64,000 nucleotides of DNA from Brevibacillus massiliensis (GTDB taxonomy: Bacteria > Bacillota > Bacilli > Brevibacillales > Brevibacillaceae), in NCBI RefSeq assembly GCF_000311785.1, contig NZ_HE978535.1:495076-559075 (forward strand), written 5' to 3'. Both the position numbers and the translations under genes were made by a program. Of this stretch, positions 632 to 15,136 are shown piece after piece; position 1 is the stretch's first letter; each line of letters starts with the position of its first letter. A model generated the notes under the pieces. That model made no database searches. It saw only the letters and a list, made by a program, of their open reading frames with translations, and had not been told where the DNA came from.

Positions 632-1549
632 ATGATAGAGCAGCTTCTCACCAAAAATGGCATGGCATTGGTCGGCATTGCCAAAATATTAATGGGTGTT
701 TCACCGGGCGACCGTATTCCGAAAATATCGGAACTGGCGGAAAAAATGCACTCTGGCAGAGGAACGGTGCAGGTGGCGTTAAAGCGAATGGAAGAGCTTG
801 GCGCTATCAAATTGGAATCAAGAGGGCATCAGGGTACTTTTTTGATTGAAATGGATCTGCCGAAAATGTGGCAAATCGCAGCTTTTGAAATGGTCACAGG
901 GGCGATGCCTCTCCCCTATTCCAAACGTTATGAGGGACTCGCGACCGGTTTATACAGTGTGTTTGAGGAAGCAAACGTTCCTTTCAGTTTAGCCTACATG
1001 CGGGGAGCCGAAAGTCGAATCAAAAGCCTCCTTAACAAGCGATACGACTTCATCCTGATCTCCCGTTATGCAGCGAAGAAAGCAATGGAAGAAGGAACTG
1101 CCATTGAAGTGGTCCTCAATTTTGGAGTAGGAACATATTTGTCTGCACATACTCTCTTGTTTGCGGATAAAAGTTTCAATGAAATCCAGGATGGCATGAG
1201 GGTTGGCTTAGACTTCGATTCCATCGACCAGCGCAATTTGACTTACAGGGTATGTGAAGGCAAAAACGTAGAGTATGTGAAACTGCCGTACACCCACATT
1301 TTGTCAAGTCTGCAAACGAAAAAAATTGATGCGTGCGTTTTTAATGGAGACGAAGTCCAGGAACGCTTTCTTTCTATCAAACAAGTTCCGATACCTCAAT
1401 CGGAACAAAGCTCAAATACAGAGGCTGTAATCGTCGTCAGAAAGGAGGATGCGGACATCTTCCAAAAACTTTTCTCGATCATGAATGTTTCAGCGGTTCT
1501 AAACATTCAAAAGCAGGTTATGAATGGCGAGATGTATCCAAGATATTAG
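632..1549 (+). CDS. yhfZ: YhfZ-type transcriptional regulator
   Basis: 305 residues. Residues 1-75 form a GntR-like winged helix (SGRGTVQVALKRMEELGAI is the recognition and wing part). Residues 85-300 resemble a periplasmic-binding-like effector domain, as in E. coli YhfZ. AGGGGG at 621-626 is its ribosome site. It is the first gene of an operon whose order (regulator, PRD protein, YhfU, YhfT, Php, YhfS, YhfX, YhfW) mirrors the enterobacterial yhf set, so it probably senses a pathway metabolite and controls the operon. The ligand is unknown. Recognition rests on the whole neighbourhood as much as on this protein. Confidence 0.82.
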   Translation: MIEQLLTKNGMALVGIAKILMGVSPGDRIPKISELAEKMHSGRGTVQVALKRMEELGAIKLESRGHQGTFLIEMDLPKMWQIAAFEMVTGAMPLPYSKRYEGLATGLYSVFEEANVPFSLAYMRGAESRIKSLLNKRYDFILISRYAAKKAMEEGTAIEVVLNFGVGTYLSAHTLLFADKSFNEIQDGMRVGLDFDSIDQRNLTYRVCEGKNVEYVKLPYTHILSSLQTKKIDACVFNGDEVQERFLSIKQVPIPQSEQSSNTEAVIVVRKEDADIFQKLFSIMNVSAVLNIQKQVMNGEMYPRY

Positions 1550-1560
1550 GGGGTTACGCA

Positions 1561-1932
1561 ATGGGAACAAACCTGGAAGCAAATTTGCTGGAGAGAATTG
1601 ACCTTCTCTATCAGACAAATCAGATTAATGACTATGTTTATGAGAAACTGCCTTCGCTGTTAAAAAGAGTGGAAGATTACTTGCAAATCACCCTGTCGGA
1701 AGAAAATGCAGGTTCGTTTGTAAGCCACCTTGCAATCGCCTTGCAGAGAATTATGCAAAATGCTCCCGTTCAGGAAGTTTCGGATGAAGTGAAAGCGTTA
1801 ACAGACAAGCACCCCGAATTTTATCAATTTGCCGGAGAAATTCTGGCCCTGCCCGGAACTGAAAGCGTTAACTGCCATGCAGAGGCATCATTTGTTACAT
1901 TATATCTTTGCTTATTAAGCGGAAAGGAGTAA
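1561..1932 (+). CDS. yhfY: Small PRD-like protein (YhfY type)
   Basis: 123 residues, all predicted helix, resembling one PTS-regulation domain. YhfY of E. coli is a similarly small stand-alone PRD protein. Conserved histidines that could be phosphorylated include those in FVSHLAI and TDKHPEF. The ribosome site overlaps the stop codon of yhfZ (TAGGGGG), so the two genes are translationally close. It may modulate YhfZ in response to phosphotransfer or another signal. No enzymatic motif is visible. The family call is moderate and supported mainly by position. Confidence 0.65.
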   Translation: MGTNLEANLLERIDLLYQTNQINDYVYEKLPSLLKRVEDYLQITLSEENAGSFVSHLAIALQRIMQNAPVQEVSDEVKALTDKHPEFYQFAGEILALPGTESVNCHAEASFVTLYLCLLSGKE

Positions 1933-1937
1933 ACAAA

Positions 1938-2309
1938 ATGTTACGAATCGTAGTGGGCGGACTTCGCAAGGATGTGATCGAAAGAACAGCAAAGGAGGCA
2001 GGTGGGGACAAGATAAGTGTGACTGTTACGTCGGATTTTGAAGCGGCGAAAAAGATTAAGGCAGGTGAGGCTGATTACTATCTCGGCGCGTGCAATAGCG
2101 GAGGAGGTGCAGCGCTCTCTATCCCGATTGGCATTCTAGGTTATTCGAATTGTGCAACCGTTGCCAAACTTGGAGGAAAACCTGATGCAAAAAACATTGA
2201 AAAATTGGTAAGTGAAGGAAAAGTTGCTTTCGGGATGGCTGTAGAAAGTGTTGAAGATGCGGTTCCCCTGATTATCAGCAGCTTACTGAAAAAGCATAAT
2301 CTCATTTAG
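1938..2309 (+). CDS. yhfU: YhfU-type small protein (DUF2620)
   Basis: 123 residues from ATG 1938, five bases after the previous stop, with the ribosome site GGAAAGGAG. It has a short alpha/beta fold with the conserved stretch YYLGACNSGGGAALSIPIG (residues 48-66) and a Gly-rich region ending in VESVEDAVPLI. DUF2620 members occur beside YhfT-type membrane proteins, so it may be a cytoplasmic partner of the transporter encoded 11 bp downstream. The biochemical role is unknown for the family. Confidence 0.8.
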   Translation: MLRIVVGGLRKDVIERTAKEAGGDKISVTVTSDFEAAKKIKAGEADYYLGACNSGGGAALSIPIGILGYSNCATVAKLGGKPDAKNIEKLVSEGKVAFGMAVESVEDAVPLIISSLLKKHNLI

Positions 2310-2320
2310 GAGGAGAAAGT

Positions 2321-3862
2321 ATGGAACCAATCAATTTATCATTCCTGCAACACATCTCCGCTGCCCAGGTTATTGTGCTTACACTCCTTACGGCTATAAC
2401 GGCTATGGCAGCTCATTTGGGAAAAGCGGTTTTTCATGACGGCATCCGCCCGATTATGCCGGAGTTCTTGGAGGGGAGGATGAGACGTCCTGAACTTGCC
2501 TCCATTTCCTTTGGATTAAGTATTGGCTTCATTGTATCGGTAGGTCTGTCGTTTGCCGTTTCGTTCCAGTTGTTAAATCCATGGCTGCTGTTTCTGCCAA
2601 CGGATATCTTAGGGGTTATGGCCACCAGTTGGTGGCTTGCGGCAATCCTTGGGGCTGCCTGGGGACTTGTCGTCTTGTTCGGTCTTGCTGGAGTGCAGAC
2701 GGTGTTTACGCTTTTACCGGTGGATTTAATCGGTGCATTAGGAGAGCTAACGACCCCGGTACTGGTTTCGTTTACCGCGTTCCCGGTGCTGGCAGTTCTG
2801 TATCAGTTTGGCTGGGTACGAGCTCTGATCACCGGTATCTCAGTCCTGATCGTTCGACAATTGCTGCCGGTGATCGGCGGAACGTTTACTGCCAAGGCAA
2901 ACGGTTTCCTAGATCAAGCGAAACAGCTTGCGGGTGTTACGTTCACGGAAAAAGCCGATTTTGCTGCGAAAGTAAATGCACTTAAGGATGCGGCGGTATC
3001 GAATCCACAAGTGCAGGATTTGATTTCGCAAGCTTCCTACAACAACTCGCTGGGAAACACCATATCCGGGTTCGTTATGCAGATTGCCGTACTTATGTTA
3101 GTAGGTATGATTTTTCTGGTGTGTTTCGCCATTTCCAAAGACCGGGCAATCAAAAAGAATGGTGCTGATGCTTCAGCGGAAATGGCAGCAGCGGCGGAAG
3201 CGGAGGCAAACATTTTTGACGTTCGCACGAAACGGATTTACAAAGGACTTCCGCTCTTGGCAGCGATTGGTGCACTTCTTGCGGTTTCGTGTAACATGGG
3301 GTTCTTTACCGGATCCGATGTTGCCGGTCCAATCTTGCAAAAGGCATGGCAGGCTACCGGACAGGAACAAACTGACCTTCTGCGCAGTGCTGCTGTAGCC
3401 GACGTGATACGGGGAATCAGTTTTATTCCGCTAATCGTTACAACCGCATTGGCTACCGGGGTTTATGGAGTAGTAGGTTTAACCTTTGTGTTCCCGCTAG
3501 GTTATTTATCTCCTAATCCAGTAATCGCCGCCATTTTGGGGGCTCTGTGGATTTGCATAGAGGTAGTTGCGCTTCGCGGAATCGGACGGTTCCTGCAGCG
3601 ATATCCGACACTACGTGAATCTTCGGATAACATTCGTACATCAATGAATACAATGATGGAACTCGCTTTGTTTATCGGGGGCGCGTTCGCCGCGATGAAA
3701 ATGGCGCCAAACGCATTCGGATTATCCTTGACGATTTTCATCCTGCTGTATGCGGCAAACGAAGGTTTGGGACGTCCGATCATGAGGCTTGCGGCTGCAC
3801 CCGTGGCCATCATCATAACCGGAATTCTTCTCAATCTGTTGCACTTTGTGAAACTCGTATAA
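2321..3862 (+). CDS. yhfT: YhfT-type multi-spanning transporter
   Basis: 513 residues with about a dozen hydrophobic segments. A soluble loop around residues 180-235 is rich in Ala/Lys, and a charged loop around 265-300 precedes the C-terminal membrane half. It matches the uncharacterised YhfT transporter family in context and layout. A strong ribosome site (GGAGGAG) precedes ATG 2321. It probably imports the substrate used by Php/YhfS/YhfX/YhfW. A small hairpin (GGTAGG/CCTACC near 3876-3892) lies between it and php and may tune expression. Confidence 0.75.
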   Translation: MEPINLSFLQHISAAQVIVLTLLTAITAMAAHLGKAVFHDGIRPIMPEFLEGRMRRPELASISFGLSIGFIVSVGLSFAVSFQLLNPWLLFLPTDILGVMATSWWLAAILGAAWGLVVLFGLAGVQTVFTLLPVDLIGALGELTTPVLVSFTAFPVLAVLYQFGWVRALITGISVLIVRQLLPVIGGTFTAKANGFLDQAKQLAGVTFTEKADFAAKVNALKDAAVSNPQVQDLISQASYNNSLGNTISGFVMQIAVLMLVGMIFLVCFAISKDRAIKKNGADASAEMAAAAEAEANIFDVRTKRIYKGLPLLAAIGALLAVSCNMGFFTGSDVAGPILQKAWQATGQEQTDLLRSAAVADVIRGISFIPLIVTTALATGVYGVVGLTFVFPLGYLSPNPVIAAILGALWICIEVVALRGIGRFLQRYPTLRESSDNIRTSMNTMMELALFIGGAFAAMKMAPNAFGLSLTIFILLYAANEGLGRPIMRLAAAPVAIIITGILLNLLHFVKLV

Positions 3863-3915
3863 AAATTCGGTTACAGGTAGGGAACCCCTACCTTTCCCTG
3901 TTAGGAGGATATCGT

Positions 3916-4824
3916 ATGAAAGTGCATTCGGTAACAGGAGCATTTGATCCTCAAGCCGTCCAAAAAACCATGATACATGAGCATCTAGTGTTTAATCTGT
4001 CGGGTGTTCGTCAAGACAATGACTCCATTTTGGAGGATTCGCCGGAGATGGATCGAGAGATGGAGTCGATTATCGCTTCGGGATGCAATACCGTCGTTGA
4101 AGTCTCAAACATCGGTATGGGGAGAAATCCACAGGGCCTGGCTGCCCTTGCCCGTAAGCATAACTTGCTGATTGTCGCATCGACCGGATTTTACAAAGAG
4201 CAGTTTTATCCATCCTTTGTGTTCGAGCGTAGTGCAGAGGAACTGGCCGAAATGATGGTCCGCGAGATTTTGGTGGGAATGGACGATACAAACATTAAAG
4301 CAGGCCTGATTGCGGAAATCGGAAGCAGTTTCAAGGAGATTACCGCAGCGGAAGAAAAGGTGTTCCGTGCTGCCATCTTGGCGCATAAACAAACAGGCGC
4401 CTCGATCAGTACCCATTGTGAGATTGGAACAATGGGAAAGGAACAAATGGCGATTTTTGAAAAATATGGCGTCGAGATGAACCGTGTCTCATTTGGACAT
4501 CAGGATCTCAACACAGATATGGAAGAACAATTGCTGATTTTGAAAAACGGTGCGTTCCTGCAGTTTGACACGATCGGAAAAAACAGTTACCGAAAAGACG
4601 AAGATCGCGTGAATCATCTGGTTGCCCTTCTTGATCGCGGGTATGAGGACCAGATCATGCTGTCATGCGATATCACAAGAAAATCGTATATGAAACAGCA
4701 CGGTGGATGGGGATACAACCATCTCTTCGAATTCTTTGTTCCTGCCTTGCAGCAAAAAGGGGTTACGCGAGACATCCTTGATAAAATGCTGATTTTCAAT
4801 CCGCGAAAGTTTTTGGCGTTCTAG
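3916..4824 (+). CDS. php: Phosphotriesterase-homology protein, amidohydrolase superfamily
   Basis: 302 residues of TIM-barrel amidohydrolase. Metal ligands can be read directly: HEH at residues 21-23, H167 in STHCE, H195 in FGHQD and an Asp in LSCDI near residue 252. The bridging position is a glutamate (AEIG, about residue 134) rather than a carboxylated lysine, as described for E. coli PHP. A strong AGGAGG precedes the ATG. Family members hydrolyse esters or lactones with a binuclear metal centre. The substrate is unknown; the operon suggests a sugar- or amino-acid-derived ester or lactone. E. coli names this gene php/yhfV. Confidence 0.86.
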   Translation: MKVHSVTGAFDPQAVQKTMIHEHLVFNLSGVRQDNDSILEDSPEMDREMESIIASGCNTVVEVSNIGMGRNPQGLAALARKHNLLIVASTGFYKEQFYPSFVFERSAEELAEMMVREILVGMDDTNIKAGLIAEIGSSFKEITAAEEKVFRAAILAHKQTGASISTHCEIGTMGKEQMAIFEKYGVEMNRVSFGHQDLNTDMEEQLLILKNGAFLQFDTIGKNSYRKDEDRVNHLVALLDRGYEDQIMLSCDITRKSYMKQHGGWGYNHLFEFFVPALQQKGVTRDILDKMLIFNPRKFLAF

Positions 4825-4833
4825 GAGGAAACC

Positions 4834-5931
4834 ATGATTAGAATTTCGACTCTGCCCACGATGACAAGGGAACAGGCGGTGCAAGCCCAATTTGCATTAG
4901 TGGACGCCATTTCCCATCATTTTTCCGGTACGGAGTTTTTATCGTCTGGAGATTATGGGGTAACACCGGGCCGGGGACGTCCAAATCAGACGATGAAAGT
5001 TGAAAAAGTGTTGGCCGAATTTTTTGGCACCGAAGATTGCGTTCTTGTTCGGGGTGCCGGTACAGGCGGCATTCGGCTTGCATTGAGCGCCTGCCTGAAT
5101 CCTGGGGATCCGATCATGTTGCATAAGGCTCCGATTTACACCACGACCAAAGAGACAATCCGTCTGATGGGGCTTAAGCCGGTATTTGTCGATTACCATG
5201 ATTTGGCTGAAGTCGTGCGGGCGCTTTCTCAGGTGAAAGTGGTATATGTACAGCATTCCCGCCAACAGATGAGAGACGAATATGATGTGGGACAGTTGAT
5301 TCAGGCGGTAAAACGAGCGCATCCGGATATCCCGGTACTCGTCGACGATAATTATACCGTGTTTAAAGTTCCGCATATCGGTGTTCAACTCGGTGCCGAC
5401 ATATCCACCTTTTCAGGGTTTAAGTTATTGGGGCCTGAAGGAATCGGGATTGTCGTAGGGAAACAGGCGCCGCTTGAAATGATAAAAAAACGGAACTATT
5501 CGGGCGGAGGCCAGGTGCAGGGACCGGAAGCGATGGAACTGCTCCGGGCACTTGTGACAGCCCCGGTTATGTGTGCGATTCAGACCGAACAGGCTGCGGA
5601 AATCTGCAGCCGGTTGAACGATGGCGAAGTACCGGGGATCGAATGGGCGCAACTGTCAAACTCCCAATCAAGAAACGTCATTGCCAAATTGTCGGATCCG
5701 ATTGCCCAACCGGTCATTGAGGCTTGTGATCAGTTTGGCGGCGCGATCTTTCCTGTAGGTGCCGAATCAAAATACGAGGTGCTGCCAATGATCTACCGCG
5801 TCTCGGGATCATTTGTGGAAAGCGATCCCGAATTGGCCCCGTATTTGCTGCGGATCAATCCCATGCGAAGCGGTGCGGGACTGGTCATTGACATTTTGAA
5901 GAAATCGCTTCATCAAGTGAACCGGTCATGA
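4834..5931 (+). CDS. yhfS: YhfS-type PLP-dependent enzyme (fold type I)
   Basis: 365 residues of aspartate-aminotransferase fold. The PLP lysine is in STFSGFKLLGPEG (about residue 195), the cofactor Asp is in VLVDDN, and a Gly-rich phosphate-binding segment lies at RGAGTGGIRLA. AGGAGG precedes ATG 4834 by 7 bp. It resembles Cys/Met-metabolism or class-V-like enzymes, as E. coli YhfS does, but the reaction (transamination, elimination or decarboxylation) cannot be fixed from sequence. It probably acts on an amino-group-bearing intermediate shared with YhfX. Confidence 0.78.
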   Translation: MIRISTLPTMTREQAVQAQFALVDAISHHFSGTEFLSSGDYGVTPGRGRPNQTMKVEKVLAEFFGTEDCVLVRGAGTGGIRLALSACLNPGDPIMLHKAPIYTTTKETIRLMGLKPVFVDYHDLAEVVRALSQVKVVYVQHSRQQMRDEYDVGQLIQAVKRAHPDIPVLVDDNYTVFKVPHIGVQLGADISTFSGFKLLGPEGIGIVVGKQAPLEMIKKRNYSGGGQVQGPEAMELLRALVTAPVMCAIQTEQAAEICSRLNDGEVPGIEWAQLSNSQSRNVIAKLSDPIAQPVIEACDQFGGAIFPVGAESKYEVLPMIYRVSGSFVESDPELAPYLLRINPMRSGAGLVIDILKKSLHQVNRS

Positions 5932-6077
5932 ATGTAGTAAGGGAACTAACGCGGAACAGGATGGCCGGGTTGCGCCAACAGTCGCGCCATACATGCGGAT
6001 CACGATGGGACAAGCCAATAAACAAAGATTATTTTTCAAACAAGATAAGCCAGTGCAAAAAAAGGCTTTTTCGGTAG
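5928..6077 (+). CDS. Possible 49-residue basic peptide between yhfS and yhfX
   Basis: The ATG at 5928 overlaps the yhfS stop (ATGA), and the frame stays open for 49 codons to a TAG at 6075-6077. That stop sits inside the ribosome site of yhfX (TAGGAGG). The product is very basic (N-terminus MNVVRELTRNRMAG) and I recognise no family. The overlap at both ends suggests translational coupling, but the upstream ribosome site is weak and the sequence could simply be a spacer. Low certainty. Confidence 0.25.
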   Translation: MNVVRELTRNRMAGLRQQSRHTCGSRWDKPINKDYFSNKISQCKKRLFR

Positions 6078-6088
6078 GAGGTGGTTGA

Positions 6089-7237
6089 ATGTTCCTTGGC
6101 GTCACTCGTCGCAGAAATCCTCAATTACTGGAGGCAGCATTATATTTTCACCAAAAAGGAGACATTCCGCCCAACACATATGTAATTGATTTGGATGCCG
6201 TCCGCGAAAATGCAGCCCATTTGGCAAAAGAGGCAAAGAAACAACAACTGCAGCTTTACTTCATGACCAAACAATTCGGTAGAAATCCAATCGTTTCAAG
6301 AGCAATTGTGGAAGCGGGCATTCCCAAAGCGGTTGCGGTTGACCCGTGGGAAGCCAGGACACTTGCTCAGAATGGCATAAAGCTGGGACATGTGGGTCAC
6401 CTTGTTCAAATCCCCCGTGCGTTCATAAGCGAGATATTGGAGCTGAACCCTGAAGTGATCACCGTCTTTAGTTATGACAATGCAAAATTGATTTCTGACG
6501 AAGCGGTGAAATTGGGAATACGGCAAAAAGTGCTTCTCCGCGTAATCGATGATGGCGATTTTCTCTATCCGGGACAATCGGGGGGATTCCGTCTGCGCGA
6601 TTTGCAAACCGATGTGGAAAATATCATGCAGCTGCCCGGAGTGGAGGTAGGCGGAGTTACAAGTTTCCCTTGTCTGCTCGTTGAAGATGATAAGGTGAAG
6701 CCAACGCCCAACATCAAAACGATCGAAAAGGCAATCGCATGTTTAAAGAAATGGGGGTTCAACGGGCTTCAGGCGAATACCCCCAGTGTCAGTTCGACTG
6801 CAACATTGGGATTGCTAAAACAGTTGGGGGCGACCCATGCCGAACCGGGACACGCACTTACGGGAACTACACCACTGCATGCGGTGGCCGAGCAGCCTGA
6901 GAAGCCGGCCATGGTTTACGTATCGGAAGTGTCACATTTATTTAGAGAAAAGGCTTATGTTTACGGCGGAGGGTTTTATTACCGATCGCACGTTAAACAT
7001 GCTTTGGTCGGTAAGCAATGGGATCAACTGAAACAAGTGGAGGTCATTGCAGATGAACCCGGGTCTATCGATTATTATGGAACACTTAATTCGGATCAGG
7101 TTTCAGTCGGAGATACAGCACTGTTTTCATTCAGGACCCAGATTTTTGTCACCAGAGCAAGCGTTGCTGTTGTGGAAGGGATAGGAAAGAATCCGAAAAT
7201 CCATGGCATCTTTGATTCGGAGGGGAGAAAATCATGA
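6089..7237 (+). CDS. yhfX: YhfX-type alanine-racemase-like PLP protein
   Basis: 382 residues. The N-terminal barrel is that of fold-type III PLP enzymes: the lysine is in YFMTKQFGRNP (residue 54), where alanine racemases carry their PLP lysine. The C-terminal part is beta-rich (AYVYGGGFYYRSH). It matches E. coli YhfX in length and context. A strong AGGAGGTGG site gives ATG 6089. It could racemise or decarboxylate an amino compound made by YhfS. The stop overlaps the start of the next gene (ATGA). Confidence 0.8.
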   Translation: MFLGVTRRRNPQLLEAALYFHQKGDIPPNTYVIDLDAVRENAAHLAKEAKKQQLQLYFMTKQFGRNPIVSRAIVEAGIPKAVAVDPWEARTLAQNGIKLGHVGHLVQIPRAFISEILELNPEVITVFSYDNAKLISDEAVKLGIRQKVLLRVIDDGDFLYPGQSGGFRLRDLQTDVENIMQLPGVEVGGVTSFPCLLVEDDKVKPTPNIKTIEKAIACLKKWGFNGLQANTPSVSSTATLGLLKQLGATHAEPGHALTGTTPLHAVAEQPEKPAMVYVSEVSHLFREKAYVYGGGFYYRSHVKHALVGKQWDQLKQVEVIADEPGSIDYYGTLNSDQVSVGDTALFSFRTQIFVTRASVAVVEGIGKNPKIHGIFDSEGRKS

Positions 7238-8436
7238 GCAGAACTGTGGTTGTAATTTTAGACGGGCTGGGTGTCGGCGAGATGCCCGATGTGGCTGAAG
7301 TGCGAAAACAGGATGTCGGTTCGCACACTCTCGGACATTTATTGGAAAAACGTCCTACGCGGTTACCCGTGCTGTCCAAGCTTGGTTTGGCGAAAATTTT
7401 ACGGAATTCTGCACTGCTGCCGGAAGTGGAGCCTGTTTCCAGTTATGGCGTTTGCCGTTTGGCTCATGATGGCGCGGATACTTATGCAGGACATAACGAG
7501 ATCATGGGTGCGAAACCCAAAGTTCCGGTCAAAATGTTCATGATTGACGTGGCTGAAGAAGTTGAAGCCGCTTTGCTTGAAGCCGGTTTTCCAGTCTCCC
7601 GTCCGATTAGCGAAACGGGAGTTCTTCTGGTAGACGGAAAAATCATTGTCGCCGACAATATGGAGACGGATCCCGGTCAAATCATAAATGTAACCGGTCC
7701 GTTGGATGAGGTTCCATTTGCAAAAATTCTAAAAGTCGGGCAAGTGGTTCGGCAAATCGTGAAAACCAGCCGGGTGATTGCTCTCGGTGGGACCGGAGTA
7801 ACGGCCCGGGATATCATAAATTCCTGCATCACCCGTAACCGTCAATGTGGAGTCGATACCCCAAGACTGAACATTTACAATGAAAATTATCAGGTTCGCC
7901 ACCTCGGTTACGGGATCAATCCGGAAACACAGATTCCTTCGATCCTGCAGCGGTCGGGAATACCCGTCTATTTATATGGGAAAATTGCCGACGTCGTTCA
8001 AGGGGACGTCGAGGAGCGGGATCCTGTTGTACAAACAGCGGGGGTTTTTGAGAGGATTCTTTCCCGTTTGGACGTGTTAAAACACGGACTGATTTGTGCC
8101 ACCGTTCAGGAAACGGATTTGGCCGGGCACGAGCAGGATTGCGAGAAATACGCACGTGTCCTGGAAATTTCGGATCGCGGAATCGGTCAAATCATCGACA
8201 GGTTGGAACCGGGTGATTTATTGATCGTAACCGCCGATCACGGGAACGACCCAACGATCGGTCACAGCGGCCATACCAGGGAATGTACCCCGTTAATGGT
8301 GTACCGCAGGGGGGAAAATAAAACAACTGAACTTGGAGTGCGAGATACACTTGCCGATGTTGCTGCTACGATTGCGGATTATTTTCAAGCGGCTTCCCCG
8401 GAATATGGCACGAGTATCTGGGCAGGTTCAAGGTAA
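7234..8436 (+). CDS. yhfW: YhfW-type phosphopentomutase-like enzyme
   Basis: 400 residues of alkaline-phosphatase superfamily, phosphopentomutase (DeoB) branch. Visible metal and catalytic motifs are VILDGLGVGE (residues 6-15), the phospho-threonine region GADTYAGHNEIMG near residue 85, DLAGHEQD near 290, and TADHGNDP with the following GHTRE near 330-350. ATG 7234 overlaps the yhfX stop by four bases, implying coupling. The DeoB-like centre suggests transfer of a phosphate on a pentose- or hexose-phosphate-like compound with Mn. The substrate is unknown, but the adjoining nagB makes a sugar phosphate plausible. Confidence 0.84.
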   Translation: MSRTVVVILDGLGVGEMPDVAEVRKQDVGSHTLGHLLEKRPTRLPVLSKLGLAKILRNSALLPEVEPVSSYGVCRLAHDGADTYAGHNEIMGAKPKVPVKMFMIDVAEEVEAALLEAGFPVSRPISETGVLLVDGKIIVADNMETDPGQIINVTGPLDEVPFAKILKVGQVVRQIVKTSRVIALGGTGVTARDIINSCITRNRQCGVDTPRLNIYNENYQVRHLGYGINPETQIPSILQRSGIPVYLYGKIADVVQGDVEERDPVVQTAGVFERILSRLDVLKHGLICATVQETDLAGHEQDCEKYARVLEISDRGIGQIIDRLEPGDLLIVTADHGNDPTIGHSGHTRECTPLMVYRRGENKTTELGVRDTLADVAATIADYFQAASPEYGTSIWAGSR

Positions 8437-8449
8437 GGAGTTGTCAACG

Positions 8450-9235
8450 ATGATCCGATTGGTCATAACAGACGACTATATGGAAATGAGCCGCAAAGCG
8501 GCTGAATGGATTGCTGGCGAGATGAAACAAAAGCCGGGCCTGGTTTTGGGATTGGCAACGGGGAGCACGCCGATCGGCATGTACAAGGAATTAATCGAGA
8601 TGTACCGTAAAGGCCAGATCGATTTCAGTCAGGTTACCACTTTTAACCTTGATGAATATGTGGGCCTACATCCGGAACATCCACAAAGTTATCATGCGTA
8701 CATGTGGAAACACTTTTTTTCCCACATCAACATCAACAAAGAACATGTAAACATTCCGCCGGGCCGATTTGAAAATGAGAAGGATGTGTGCAGCCGCTAT
8801 GACGAAAAAATCAAAAAAAGCGGCGGAATCGACATTCAGATATTGGGGATCGGGCGCAACGGCCATATTGGATTCAATGAACCCGACTCTTCCTTATCAA
8901 TCAAAACACATATTGTGAATCTCGCTTTGGAAACGATTGAAGCGAATTCACGATTTTTCCCGCAAAAAGACGAGGTTCCCAAGCAAGCGATTACGATGGG
9001 GCTTGGCAGCATAATGGAAGCAAAGACGATATTGCTGCTTGCCAATGGCAGAGATAAGGCGGCCGCCATCGCGAAAACGCTTATGGGAAAAGTGAGTACG
9101 CAAATCCCTGCTTCACTGCTGCAGCTTCATCCGAATGTAACGATGATAATGGACAAGGAGGCAGCCTGTTTTGTGACAGAAAACAAACACGTTCGCGAAT
9201 GGAGTTTTGCCTATCAAAGCGAGGGTATCGGTTAG
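8450..9235 (+). CDS. nagB: Glucosamine-6-phosphate deaminase family protein
   Basis: 261 residues. The family signatures are intact: GLATGSTPIG (residues 36-45), NLDEYVGL with the catalytic Asp (about 68-75), and GIGRNGHIGFNEP (about 134-146). ATG 8450 was chosen because it follows AAGGAG and starts the normal N-terminus. The enzyme converts glucosamine-6-phosphate to fructose-6-phosphate plus ammonia in canonical members. It closes the yhf-type operon, 13 bp after yhfW, an association that E. coli lacks. Either the pathway yields an amino sugar phosphate or this is a paralogue with another substrate. No terminator is obvious after it. Confidence 0.88.
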   Translation: MIRLVITDDYMEMSRKAAEWIAGEMKQKPGLVLGLATGSTPIGMYKELIEMYRKGQIDFSQVTTFNLDEYVGLHPEHPQSYHAYMWKHFFSHININKEHVNIPPGRFENEKDVCSRYDEKIKKSGGIDIQILGIGRNGHIGFNEPDSSLSIKTHIVNLALETIEANSRFFPQKDEVPKQAITMGLGSIMEAKTILLLANGRDKAAAIAKTLMGKVSTQIPASLLQLHPNVTMIMDKEAACFVTENKHVREWSFAYQSEGIG

Positions 9236-9288
9236 AAAGCGGGAAAAAACCGGAACGTTTAAACAAGCTGATGATCGGAGTGATTTGT

Positions 9289-9570
9289 TGGTTTTAACTC
9301 AACCGATTCGACGTGGGAGCATTATCCCACAGGGAGAAGGAGCTTCCTACTTTGAGTGGGCGATGTGGCGAGCGTTTCTTGCTATAAACCCTCTTGTGAA
9401 TGAATCGTAGGGAAGCAAGGCGATTTAGAATGGATCAAGAGTTTTTACCGTTAGGACCCGCACCAGGCAACGGTCCCGACATGATCTTTGGGTTTGATGA
9501 ATTTTATTGTGGTTGAGGTGACTCTAACGCAATCCTCTCGTCAGGAAGCGGCTGAAGGCGAACCAGCCGT
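9289..9570 (+). pseudogene. AlwI-family type II restriction endonuclease remnant
   Basis: Pieces of one protein appear in successive frames: LTQPIRRGSIIPQGEGAS with FEWAMWRAFLAI; then, after a shift near 9400, RREARRFRMDQEFLP and GNGPDMIFGFDEFY; then, after a shift near 9510, FIVVEVTLTQSSRQEAAEGE. The last two parts carry the PD...ExT nuclease core and the stretch typical of AlwI-type enzymes. Stops and at least two frameshifts, with both ends missing, make it a dead fragment. Family name is from memory of the motif; moderately confident. Confidence 0.62.
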
Positions 9571-9706
9571 CGATGGAAGAAAAATCAGCGAAAAGAAACT
9601 ATTGTATGGTAATTGGAACCTCGTCAATCTTTGGGAAGCGGTTAGTGCGGACCCGTATGCTAGCTGTTGTGAGAGGTCGGGGGTTAGTCACCCCCTCCTA
9701 CTCGTT

Positions 9707-9768
9707 TTGGCGGAGCGTGTGGAATCGAACCCACCTGCGACATCCCATGCCGCACACTCGGTTTTGAA
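9707..9768 (-). pseudogene. 3' fragment of a selenocysteine tRNA
   Basis: Read on the minus strand, this stretch gives the anticodon loop CTTCAAA (anticodon TCA at 9764-9766) and the 3' anticodon strand. A long variable arm follows with a perfect 8-bp stem (TGCGGCAT/ATGTCGCA, loop GGG), then a TTCGATT T-loop and the acceptor 3' strand CACGCTCCG ending in CCA. The 5' half (acceptor GGAGCG and D-arm) is absent upstream, and the T-stem appears to lack one C. This is a tRNA-Sec truncated at the anticodon loop, probably an integration or recombination scar rather than a working tRNA. Confidence 0.72.
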
Positions 9769-9809
9769 GTTTGAAAATCGCGTTTTTTTCCAATGCTTCT
9801 GAGTAAAAT

Positions 9810-10100
9810 GTTGTTGTGAGCGGGATGGATTTCCACCCAACTGCTTTGTTTATCCAAAATCTGAAGGGATGGGAACTTTTTGCACCATAATGTCGATGCC
9901 GGAATGGAAGGGTCGTAAATCGTGATACTGAAAATGACCGGGGTATGCAGCAGTAAGCAAACCTCGGTCAGTTTTTTTGTCGCTGCAATTTGATCTTCCA
10001 CTTTAATCGCCAATTGGGAATGACTCTGTGTAAAGGCATGAGAGAGATCCCGAATCAACAAGGCCGGTTTTTTCCCGAAACCCTGTAGAGATTTTGGGGT
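9810..10100 (-). pseudogene. Isochorismatase-family amidohydrolase remnant
   Basis: The minus-strand frame reads GFGKKPALLIRDLSHAFT, a stretch PVIFSITIYDP, FPSLQILDKQSSWVEIHPA, in the order found at the N-terminus of N-carbamoylsarcosine amidase-like isochorismatase-fold hydrolases. The sequence then loses similarity near 9810, next to the tRNA-Sec fragment, so the catalytic Cys region is missing. No credible start codon or ribosome site remains. It is a truncated gene, part of the scar zone between nagB and the yyaL-type gene. Confidence 0.55.
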
Positions 10101-10306: not shown

Positions 10307-12391
10307 ATGACAACGAACAATAAACCCAATAGATTAGCAAAGGAAAAGTCGCCGTACTTGCTTCATCACGCATACAATCCGGTTGATTGGTTCCCTTGGT
10401 CGGACGAGGCTTTTGAAACAGCATTGAGTGAAAACAAGCCTGTCTTTTTATCTATTGGGTATTCTTAGTCGTTGGAATAAAATACCACATGCCATTGGTG
10501 CCACGTCATGGAACGCGAATCTTTCGAAGACGAAGAAGTAGCATCGCTCTTAAACCAGCACTACATCTCCATCAAAGTGGACCGGGAAGAACGCCCGGAC
10601 ATTGATCACATCTACATGGCGGTGTGTCAGGCGATGACCGGACACGGCGGCTGGCCGATGACGATCATCATGACGCCAAAGAAGCAGCCGTTCTTCGCCG
10701 GGACGTATTTTCCCAAGGCCTCGAAGTGGGGCAGGCCCGGCTTGATGGATATCCTGCATCAGGTGGCGGAGCTCTGGGAGAAGGAGCCGCAGCGGATCGC
10801 CCATACCGTAGAGCGGATCACAGAGGCGGTCACTGTGCACCTGTCGGGGGACGCCGACGGAGAACTGACGGAAGATATCCTGGCCCATGCCTTTCAGTTG
10901 TTTCGCCAACAGTTTGACCATCGCTATGGCGGGTTTGGCGACGCGCCGAAGTTCCCCACGCCGCACAACCTTCTGTTTCTGCTGCGGCATTGGAAATTGA
11001 CCGGCGAAGAACAGGCGCTGGCGATGGTGGAACAGACGCTTGCAGCCATGCACCGCGGGGGTATTTACGATCACGTGGGATTCGGATTTTCCCGCTATTC
11101 GGTCGATCGGGAGTGGCTCGTTCCCCATTTTGAGAAGATGCTGTACGACAATGCGCTGCTGGCCTATACATACCTTGAGGCGTACCAGGCGACGAAGAAG
11201 CCGCCGTACGCCCAAGTGGCGAAGGAGATCTTCACCTACGTCCTGCGCGACATGACCGATCCGGAAGGCGGTTTTTACTCGGCGGAGGATGCCGATTCGG
11301 AGGGGGAAGAGGGCAAGTTTTACCTCTGGACGCCCGACGAGATCCGCCGCGTGCTGGGCAGCGAAGCGGGGGAGCTGTACTGTACAGCCTACGACATCAC
11401 GGAAACGGGCAATTTTGAAGGTCGCAGCATCCCCAACCTGATTCGCCGTTCTTTGGCCCAGACGGCAAGCCAGCTGGGCAAAGGCGAACCGGAGCTGCGG
11501 CAGCTCTTGGCAGACGCGCGTGAACGGTTGTTCGCAGCCCGGGAACAGCGCGTCCATCCCGGCAAGGACGATAAAATCCTGACAGCTTGGAACGGCCTGA
11601 TGATCGCCGCCCTGGCAAAGGCAGCCCAGGTACTGGGAGAAGATAGGTACGAGCAGGCGGCAGCCCGGGCGCTGCAGTTCGTGCAGGGCAAAATCAGCCG
11701 CCAGGATGGACGATTGCTCGCCCGTTACCGCGATGGCGAGGCGGCTCATCTCGGCTACGCAGACGATTACGCGTTTCTCGTCTGGGGGCTGTTGGAACTG
11801 TACGAGGCGACCTTGGATTCCCGGCATCTGCGGGAAGCGGTCCGATTGACGGACGACCTGCTTCGCCTGTTCTGGGATGAGCAGGCAGGCGGGCTGTTCT
11901 TTTACGGCAGTGACGGGGAAACACTGATCGCCCGGCCAAAGGAGATCTATGACGGGGCCACGCCGTCGGGAAACAGTGTCGCTGCCCACAACCTGCTTCG
12001 CCTGTTCCACCTGACCGGACGCCCGGAGTACCAAGAGCGGGCCGAGCGGCTGCTGCAGGCATTCGCCGGAAGCATCGAGCAGTATCCGCCGGGGTACAGC
12101 TTTTCCTTGATGGCGCTGCAGCTTGCCACTGGTCCGGCAAGGGAGATCGTGATCGCCGGCGAGCGCGGGTCGGAAGAAGTGAAGCAGCTTCGTGCCGTTT
12201 TGCGGGATAGCTACCAGCCGCTTGCCGTGATCGCCTGCCACGACCCGAACGACACCTTGGCCGACATCGCCCCGGCGATTCAGGAGAAGACAATGCAGGA
12301 TGGAAAAGCCACCGTCTACGTGTGCGAAAACTTTACCTGCAGTGCTCCGCTGACCGATGTGGAGCAGGTAAAACAACTGTTTGCCGATTGA
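10307..12391 (+). pseudogene. yyaL: YyaL/DUF255 thioredoxin-domain protein, interrupted by an in-frame insertion with two stops
   Basis: The family N-terminus starts at ATG 10307 after AAGGAGGTGG ([21 protein letters not shown]), and the frame remains open to 12391 apart from a 21-bp block at 10466-10486. That block sits exactly between IGYS and TCHWCHVM and contains TAG (10466) and TAA (10478). Removing it restores the usual CHWCH motif and a full-length protein of about 687 residues. The rest is intact: thioredoxin-like part, then an alpha/alpha-barrel like N-acylglucosamine 2-epimerases (FGDAPKFPTP, DADSEGEEGKFY). Translation could restart at ATG 10508, but that product would lack the CHWCH motif. 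The first 160 bp look AT-richer than the rest. Confidence 0.8.
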
Positions 12392-14802: not shown

Positions 14803-14892
14803 TGGCAAAAAAATTTGCTTGAAAAGAATTGATCAATTGATTACACTTAAACATGTTATGTATCAATTAAATAAGCAACCCTCATCGAACGG

Positions 14893-15136
14893 TGAGGTAG
14901 AGGTCGCGAATTTTAAGAGTCATTTGGGGAAGATGCCGAGAACGTCGATGAACCCGAATAAAAGGAAAATTCGCCGAAGTTTGCCTGTTTTCTCTGGACA
15001 GGCGGGCTGGGGCTGCACTCGAAAGGGGCAGAACTGTCACGGTTCCGTCATACGGGAATCGTGGAGAGCTATCTCAGGCGAAGGTATGGTGTGGTTATGA
15101 GAATGCCGTCCATCACTTTTGGCGGTATTTTTTATT
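14893..15136 (+). promoter_or_regulatory. Lysine riboswitch (L-box) with expression-platform terminator
   Basis: The L-box consensus can be followed along the strand: TGAGGTAGAGG, then GGGGAAGATGCCGAG, GCCGAAG, the GGGCTGGGGCTGC core, GAACTGTCAC, and GTGGAGAGCTATCTCA. P1 is formed by TGAGGTAG (14893-14900) with CTATCTCA (15069-15076). A terminator follows (AATGCCG 15102-15108 with CGGTATT 15123-15129 and a T-run). It precedes the permease at 15195, so lysine binding should terminate transcription. In L-box systems lysine stabilises the aptamer and lets the terminator form. Confidence 0.93.

Follow-up and report, generated by a model that had tools for sequence, protein, structure and literature searches.

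Docking of mobile elements at the tRNA gene for selenocysteine (tRNA-Sec) is best known from selC of enterobacteria. In Escherichia coli, the tRNA-Sec gene selC is an integration target, for instance of AGI-3 (PMC2704930), and Pf prophages integrate in the tRNA-Sec of Pseudomonas aeruginosa (PMC11878078). A regenerated tRNA and a displaced fragment mark the ends of islands, according to two reports (PMC4383910, PMC9897764). For Bacilli or Firmicutes, we found nothing specific in the literature on tRNA-Sec integration sites.

We analyzed a stretch of 64,000 nt of the Brevibacillus massiliensis genome (contig NZ_HE978535.1, positions 495,076 to 559,075), in the following called the window. On its minus strand, positions 9708–9769 hold the 3′ half of a tRNA-Sec gene, from the first base of the anticodon loop to the CCA end (minus strand 9769–9708: CTTCAAAACCGAGTGTGCGGCATGGGATGTCGCAGGTGGGTTCGATTCCACACGCTCCGCCA). 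The limits are 9708 (A of CCA) and 9769 (C of CTTCAAA), and the candidate att core sequence is TTCAAAACC. The earlier note had recognized the fragment correctly but placed it at 9707–9768; the corrected limits are one base wider on the 5′ side. The fragment and its surroundings comprise the following features:

632..9235, plus strand: yhf-type operon and a glucosamine-6-phosphate isomerase-like gene, low GC (Pfam; YhfT count)
9243..9565, plus strand: remnant of a gene for an AlwI-family type II restriction endonuclease, amino acids 336–447 of a Geobacillus protein (blastn 75%, tblastn, annotation)
9600..9706, plus strand: putative group II intron 3′ end, 5′-truncated, with the end of the ltrA region and the terminal domains (repeat beside annotated ltrA)
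9708..9769, minus strand: decayed 3′ half of a tRNA-Sec, foreign by its DNA identity to intact genes, CTTCAAA to CCA (Rfam covariance model)
9813..10084, minus strand: remnant of a hydrolase gene, amino acids 71–161 of 267 (66% amino acid and 68% DNA identity; full-length homolog L076)
10309..12391, plus strand: yyaL-like gene, the first of the family-conserved right flank (Pfam PF03190 and sequence; intact in G005)

Applied to positions 9704–9769, the Rfam tRNA-Sec model (RF01852) gave a 5′-truncated match on the minus strand at 9709–9769, covering model positions 34–91 of 91, with 27.2 bits and an E-value of 3.6e-4. Together with 92% DNA identity to intact genes, this bears out the previous reading as a truncated tRNA-Sec 3′ half. 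A functional gene would have a complete cloverleaf and a score above the gathering cut-off of 47 bits; the fragment has neither. ARAGORN called no tRNA over the window. The covariance model, which had been proposed as a check for an upstream 5′ half, yielded no full-length tRNA-Sec match in the whole 1.3-kb interval. When three tRNA-Sec 5′ halves were aligned locally with the 730 bases next to the fragment on its 5′ side, none was detected either, with scores of 13, 13, and 19 versus shuffle maxima of 21, 21, and 24. The score of 19 belongs to the 5′ half of the genome's own tRNA; 2% of shuffles reach this value, and 26 was scored elsewhere in the window. The statement that nothing is present 5′ of the anticodon loop therefore stands.

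Anticodon, variable arm (5 bp paired by the Rfam tRNA-Sec model, compared with the perfect 8-bp stem given in the earlier note), T loop, and CCA are all retained, as would be expected if this were one part of a split or otherwise functional tRNA-Sec with its 5′ half located elsewhere. However, two one-base deletions distinguish the fragment from intact homologs. Because one C of the T stem and one base of the acceptor strand are missing, even the 3′ half could not adopt its proper fold. The CCA also borders directly on an antisense intron end, and the genome possesses an intact tRNA-Sec, all of which makes a split gene exceedingly improbable. The fragment is non-functional, with no present function, and annotation of 3′ tRNA-Sec pieces of this kind as tRNA genes should be avoided.

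Intact tRNA-Sec genes of other Bacilli match the fragment with 92% identity over ~65 bp and E-values of about 1e-19 to 1e-22, hence not by chance. The genomes with these matches (G088, G072, and G051) belong to other families within the same class. Identity to the genome's own tRNA-Sec is about 79%. Because of this difference, the fragment is, judged by its identities, a piece of a foreign tRNA-Sec, and an origin by recent partial duplication of the host's own gene was ruled out. A first, stricter pattern searched over genome contigs gave zero matches, and a looser one retrieved one intact tRNA-Sec, from Ammoniphilus sp. YIM 78166. Viral contigs searched by a pattern with the exact acceptor end of the fragment gave zero matches.

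As the earlier note had supposed, a complete tRNA-Sec lies elsewhere in the genome, the single intact copy being at C2:653935-654027 (63.6 bits), on a different contig than the fragment. The suggested search for selA and selB was also successful, with selB at C2:664943-666832 and a selA-like stretch between the intact tRNA-Sec and selB. The assertion that selenocysteine is not needed does not agree with this retention of tRNA-Sec, selB, and a selA-like gene.

Related genomes illustrate the integration of elements at tRNA-Sec. In G045, a tyrosine integrase gene (7903-9051; PF00589) faces an intact tRNA-Sec (C17:7698), and a tRNA-Sec 3′ half with no 5′ half attached lies 35,679 bp away, delimiting a 35.7-kb prophage (C17:7698-43485, L057–L059). 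The two repeat copies agree at each of 109 bp, the first of which is precisely the C of CTTCAAA. The prophage encodes a YqaJ-type recombinase and, by reading, a repressor as well as holin-like and endolysin-like proteins; its integrase is also carried by IMG/VR 2784746787_000001. In G076, an insert of about 0.9 kb with HicA/HicB (PF07927, PF05534) has an intact tRNA-Sec on one side and, on the other, a 3′ half that also begins at CTTCAAA. The repeat there is 67 bp long, with two differences that preserve a T-stem pair by compensation. Tyrosine integrases with 40% mutual identity are encoded within about 0.3 kb behind the intact tRNA-Sec in G088 and G051. A detached 3′ half of 65 identical nt at C43:8280 in G051 has the orientation expected of a far end; we infer its pairing with the intact gene across unjoined contigs, and the copies have some bases in common on the 5′ side of the anticodon loop as well. 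On an IMG/VR phage contig (L094), an integrase gene occupies 2184-3287, and a tRNA-Sec 3′ half lacking its 5′ counterpart comes next, at 3386. These cases show the mechanism, in which recombination takes place at the anticodon loop, the tRNA is rebuilt at one end of the element, and the 3′ half comes to lie at the other, in agreement with the published descriptions (PMC4383910, PMC9897764). The tRNA-Sec gene is a repeatedly used docking site in Bacilli.

Two further observations were made in these genomes. The HicA/HicB pair of G076 (L045, C33 about 1001-2054) stands alone, like a minimal integrated cassette, and HEPN- and nucleotidyltransferase-like open reading frames, assigned by reading, come next. 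Besides its intact gene, G072 contains two tRNA-Sec pieces (C1:2912346 and 3293460; L037, L038), one including the 5′ strand of the anticodon stem and one consisting only of the T arm and a portion of the variable arm, both with similar terminators behind them.

Because the related genomes show how such 3′ halves arise, we consider the fragment most likely to be an attachment-site fossil of an element with tRNA genes as its integration sites, with a probability of roughly 70%. A phage or genomic island would have used its tyrosine integrase to recombine with a tRNA-Sec gene at the anticodon loop, and the 3′ half, which runs from this loop to CCA, would have been left behind or carried as the element's own attP. 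The copy in the window may have been made by the same process as in the related genomes and have arrived by horizontal transfer, either with the element or with DNA that already bore the fragment. A group II intron would later have inserted in antisense direction directly behind the CCA, and deletions would have removed the remainder.

The boundary of the fragment points in this direction. Its first base, base 1 of the anticodon loop, is the same base at which the repeats in G045 and G076 start, a known sublocation of integrase crossover. This match agrees with the previous claim of a 3′ fragment of the attachment-site type. Alternatively, foreign DNA with a complete tRNA-Sec could have been acquired and the 5′ half lost by ordinary deletion. 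Deletion is common here, as the neighboring pieces are all cut at arbitrary points, and further 3′ pieces in G072 (L038) start at different positions of the gene. Nevertheless, a break exactly at the base where the G045 and G076 repeats start would occur by chance in the order of 1 in 100, and we regard random truncation as unlikely.

The assembly contains the fragment only once, and a partner att repeat was not found. Neither a linked direct-repeat partner nor an intact target tRNA in the same orientation was detected, with a 1355-base N gap to the left that leaves some room. Neither the window nor the left flank examined shows similarity to integrases, and no integrase or other element genes adjoin the fragment. 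As the intact tRNA-Sec is on C2, a normal att pair would need rearrangement or integration at a secondary site. Because a linked partner or intact tRNA was not found, we call the fragment a relic of attachment-site type, which is less than a proven att site.

From 9235, the end of the last yhf-side gene, to 10309, where yyaL starts, there are no intact genes and only truncated pieces, forming a patchwork of 1.07 kb. The AlwI-family remnant contains frame breaks in the tblastn alignment. Positions 9600–9706 correspond to the 3′-terminal 107 bases of a group II intron and represent a high-copy repeat, with homologs adjoining annotated ltrA in three plasmid records and a second copy within the genome at C26:18274. 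Rfam returned no group II intron match for 9600–9707 at E-values up to 1; because this piece is short, degenerate, and without an Rfam match, we class it only as homologous to the 3′ end of ltrA-bearing introns. Its 3′ end abuts the CCA end of the tRNA in antisense orientation, with TTGGCGG as 3′ exon, which fits an intron insertion just behind the 3′ end of tRNA-Sec. Copying of a tRNA by the intron reverse transcriptase was also considered and rejected, since the order, with CCA beside the intron 3′ end, better fits simple insertion. The hydrolase is isochorismatase-like by reading, with a MerR-like N-terminus, and has an intact relative at C6:103875. The idea that the other half of its gene lies at the far left end of an insert was discarded, as the search of the genome gave intact relatives but no C-terminal piece. 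The 43 bases between the fragment and the hydrolase remnant matched nothing, so that the 5′ side shows no recognizable element DNA. The truncated pieces around the fragment are the scar of decayed mobile DNA, and their mobile character speaks for the attachment-site explanation.

The right flank, from yyaL to a polA-like gene, is syntenic in G005, a genome of the same family, except for an insert with a TPP-enzyme and a lysP-like gene in the window. The left flank has nothing in common with the G005 locus, and YhfT is present in just one of 39 family genomes. For these reasons, the interval is a junction between the family backbone and probably imported DNA. The GC content is 0.43–0.52 on the yhf side versus mostly 0.54–0.61 on the right. 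The low-GC yhf block was probably imported, as had been proposed for the segment to the left including the yhf operon.

Within the right flank, the yyaL-like gene contains a 21-nt in-frame insertion (TAGTCGTTGGAATAAAATACC, about 10466–10486) with two in-frame stops. It sits between SIGYS and TCHWC, right before a CxxC-like motif, while the G005 gene is intact; the yyaL-like gene is probably a pseudogene or restarts at 10508. A lysine riboswitch at 14890–15079 (plus strand) precedes the lysP-like permease gene.

Ordinarily, a displaced 3′ half has its element on its 5′ side. In the window, this side faces right, opposite to yhf and toward the hydrolase remnant 43 bases away. It is possible that the fragment marks the end of the yhf block, but only via secondary-site integration or later rearrangement. 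In this special case of the attachment-site explanation, the fragment would be the right end of the yhf import, left by an element with a tRNA-Sec attP that entered a non-tRNA secondary site and extended to the left. The scar does lie between the family-conserved right flank and a block with the family-unique YhfT, and the fragment is closer to foreign tRNA-Sec than to that of the host. However, the left block has no integrase, other truncated pieces intervene between the fragment and the yhf operon, and a second junction is absent, the left boundary of the block falling in the 1355-base N run (C1:493721-495075). The proposed search for a direct repeat beyond the left edge was negative for the assembly, with this boundary inside the N run. 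We therefore find it doubtful that the fragment ends the yhf import, and equally so that a secondary-site element brought in the yhf operon with its foreign attP half as the only mark left. If this were true, tRNA-Sec would, together with G045, G076, G051, and G088, be a general integration hotspot of Bacilli.

By itself, the fragment is a small fossil and ordinary as a kind. It marks where the family backbone joins probably imported DNA and extends the known tRNA-Sec docking by cases from Bacilli. Only the repeated use of tRNA-Sec for integration in Bacilli is of wider note.

Like the displaced tRNA 3′ fragments of genomic islands (Islander, PMC4383910; PMC9897764), the fragment consists of the tRNA 3′ part from the anticodon loop, without the 5′ half. 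It differs from these in having no linked intact tRNA, integrase, or element and in diverging from the host tRNA. With the selC islands such as AGI-3 and the Pf prophages it shares the targeted tRNA-Sec gene, but those are whole linked elements in Gammaproteobacteria, whereas the window holds a relic in Bacilli. The G045 prophage, which is complete with 109-bp att repeats where the window has the fragment only, comes from the same class, and the tRNA-Sec 3′ half at its far end starts with the same base.
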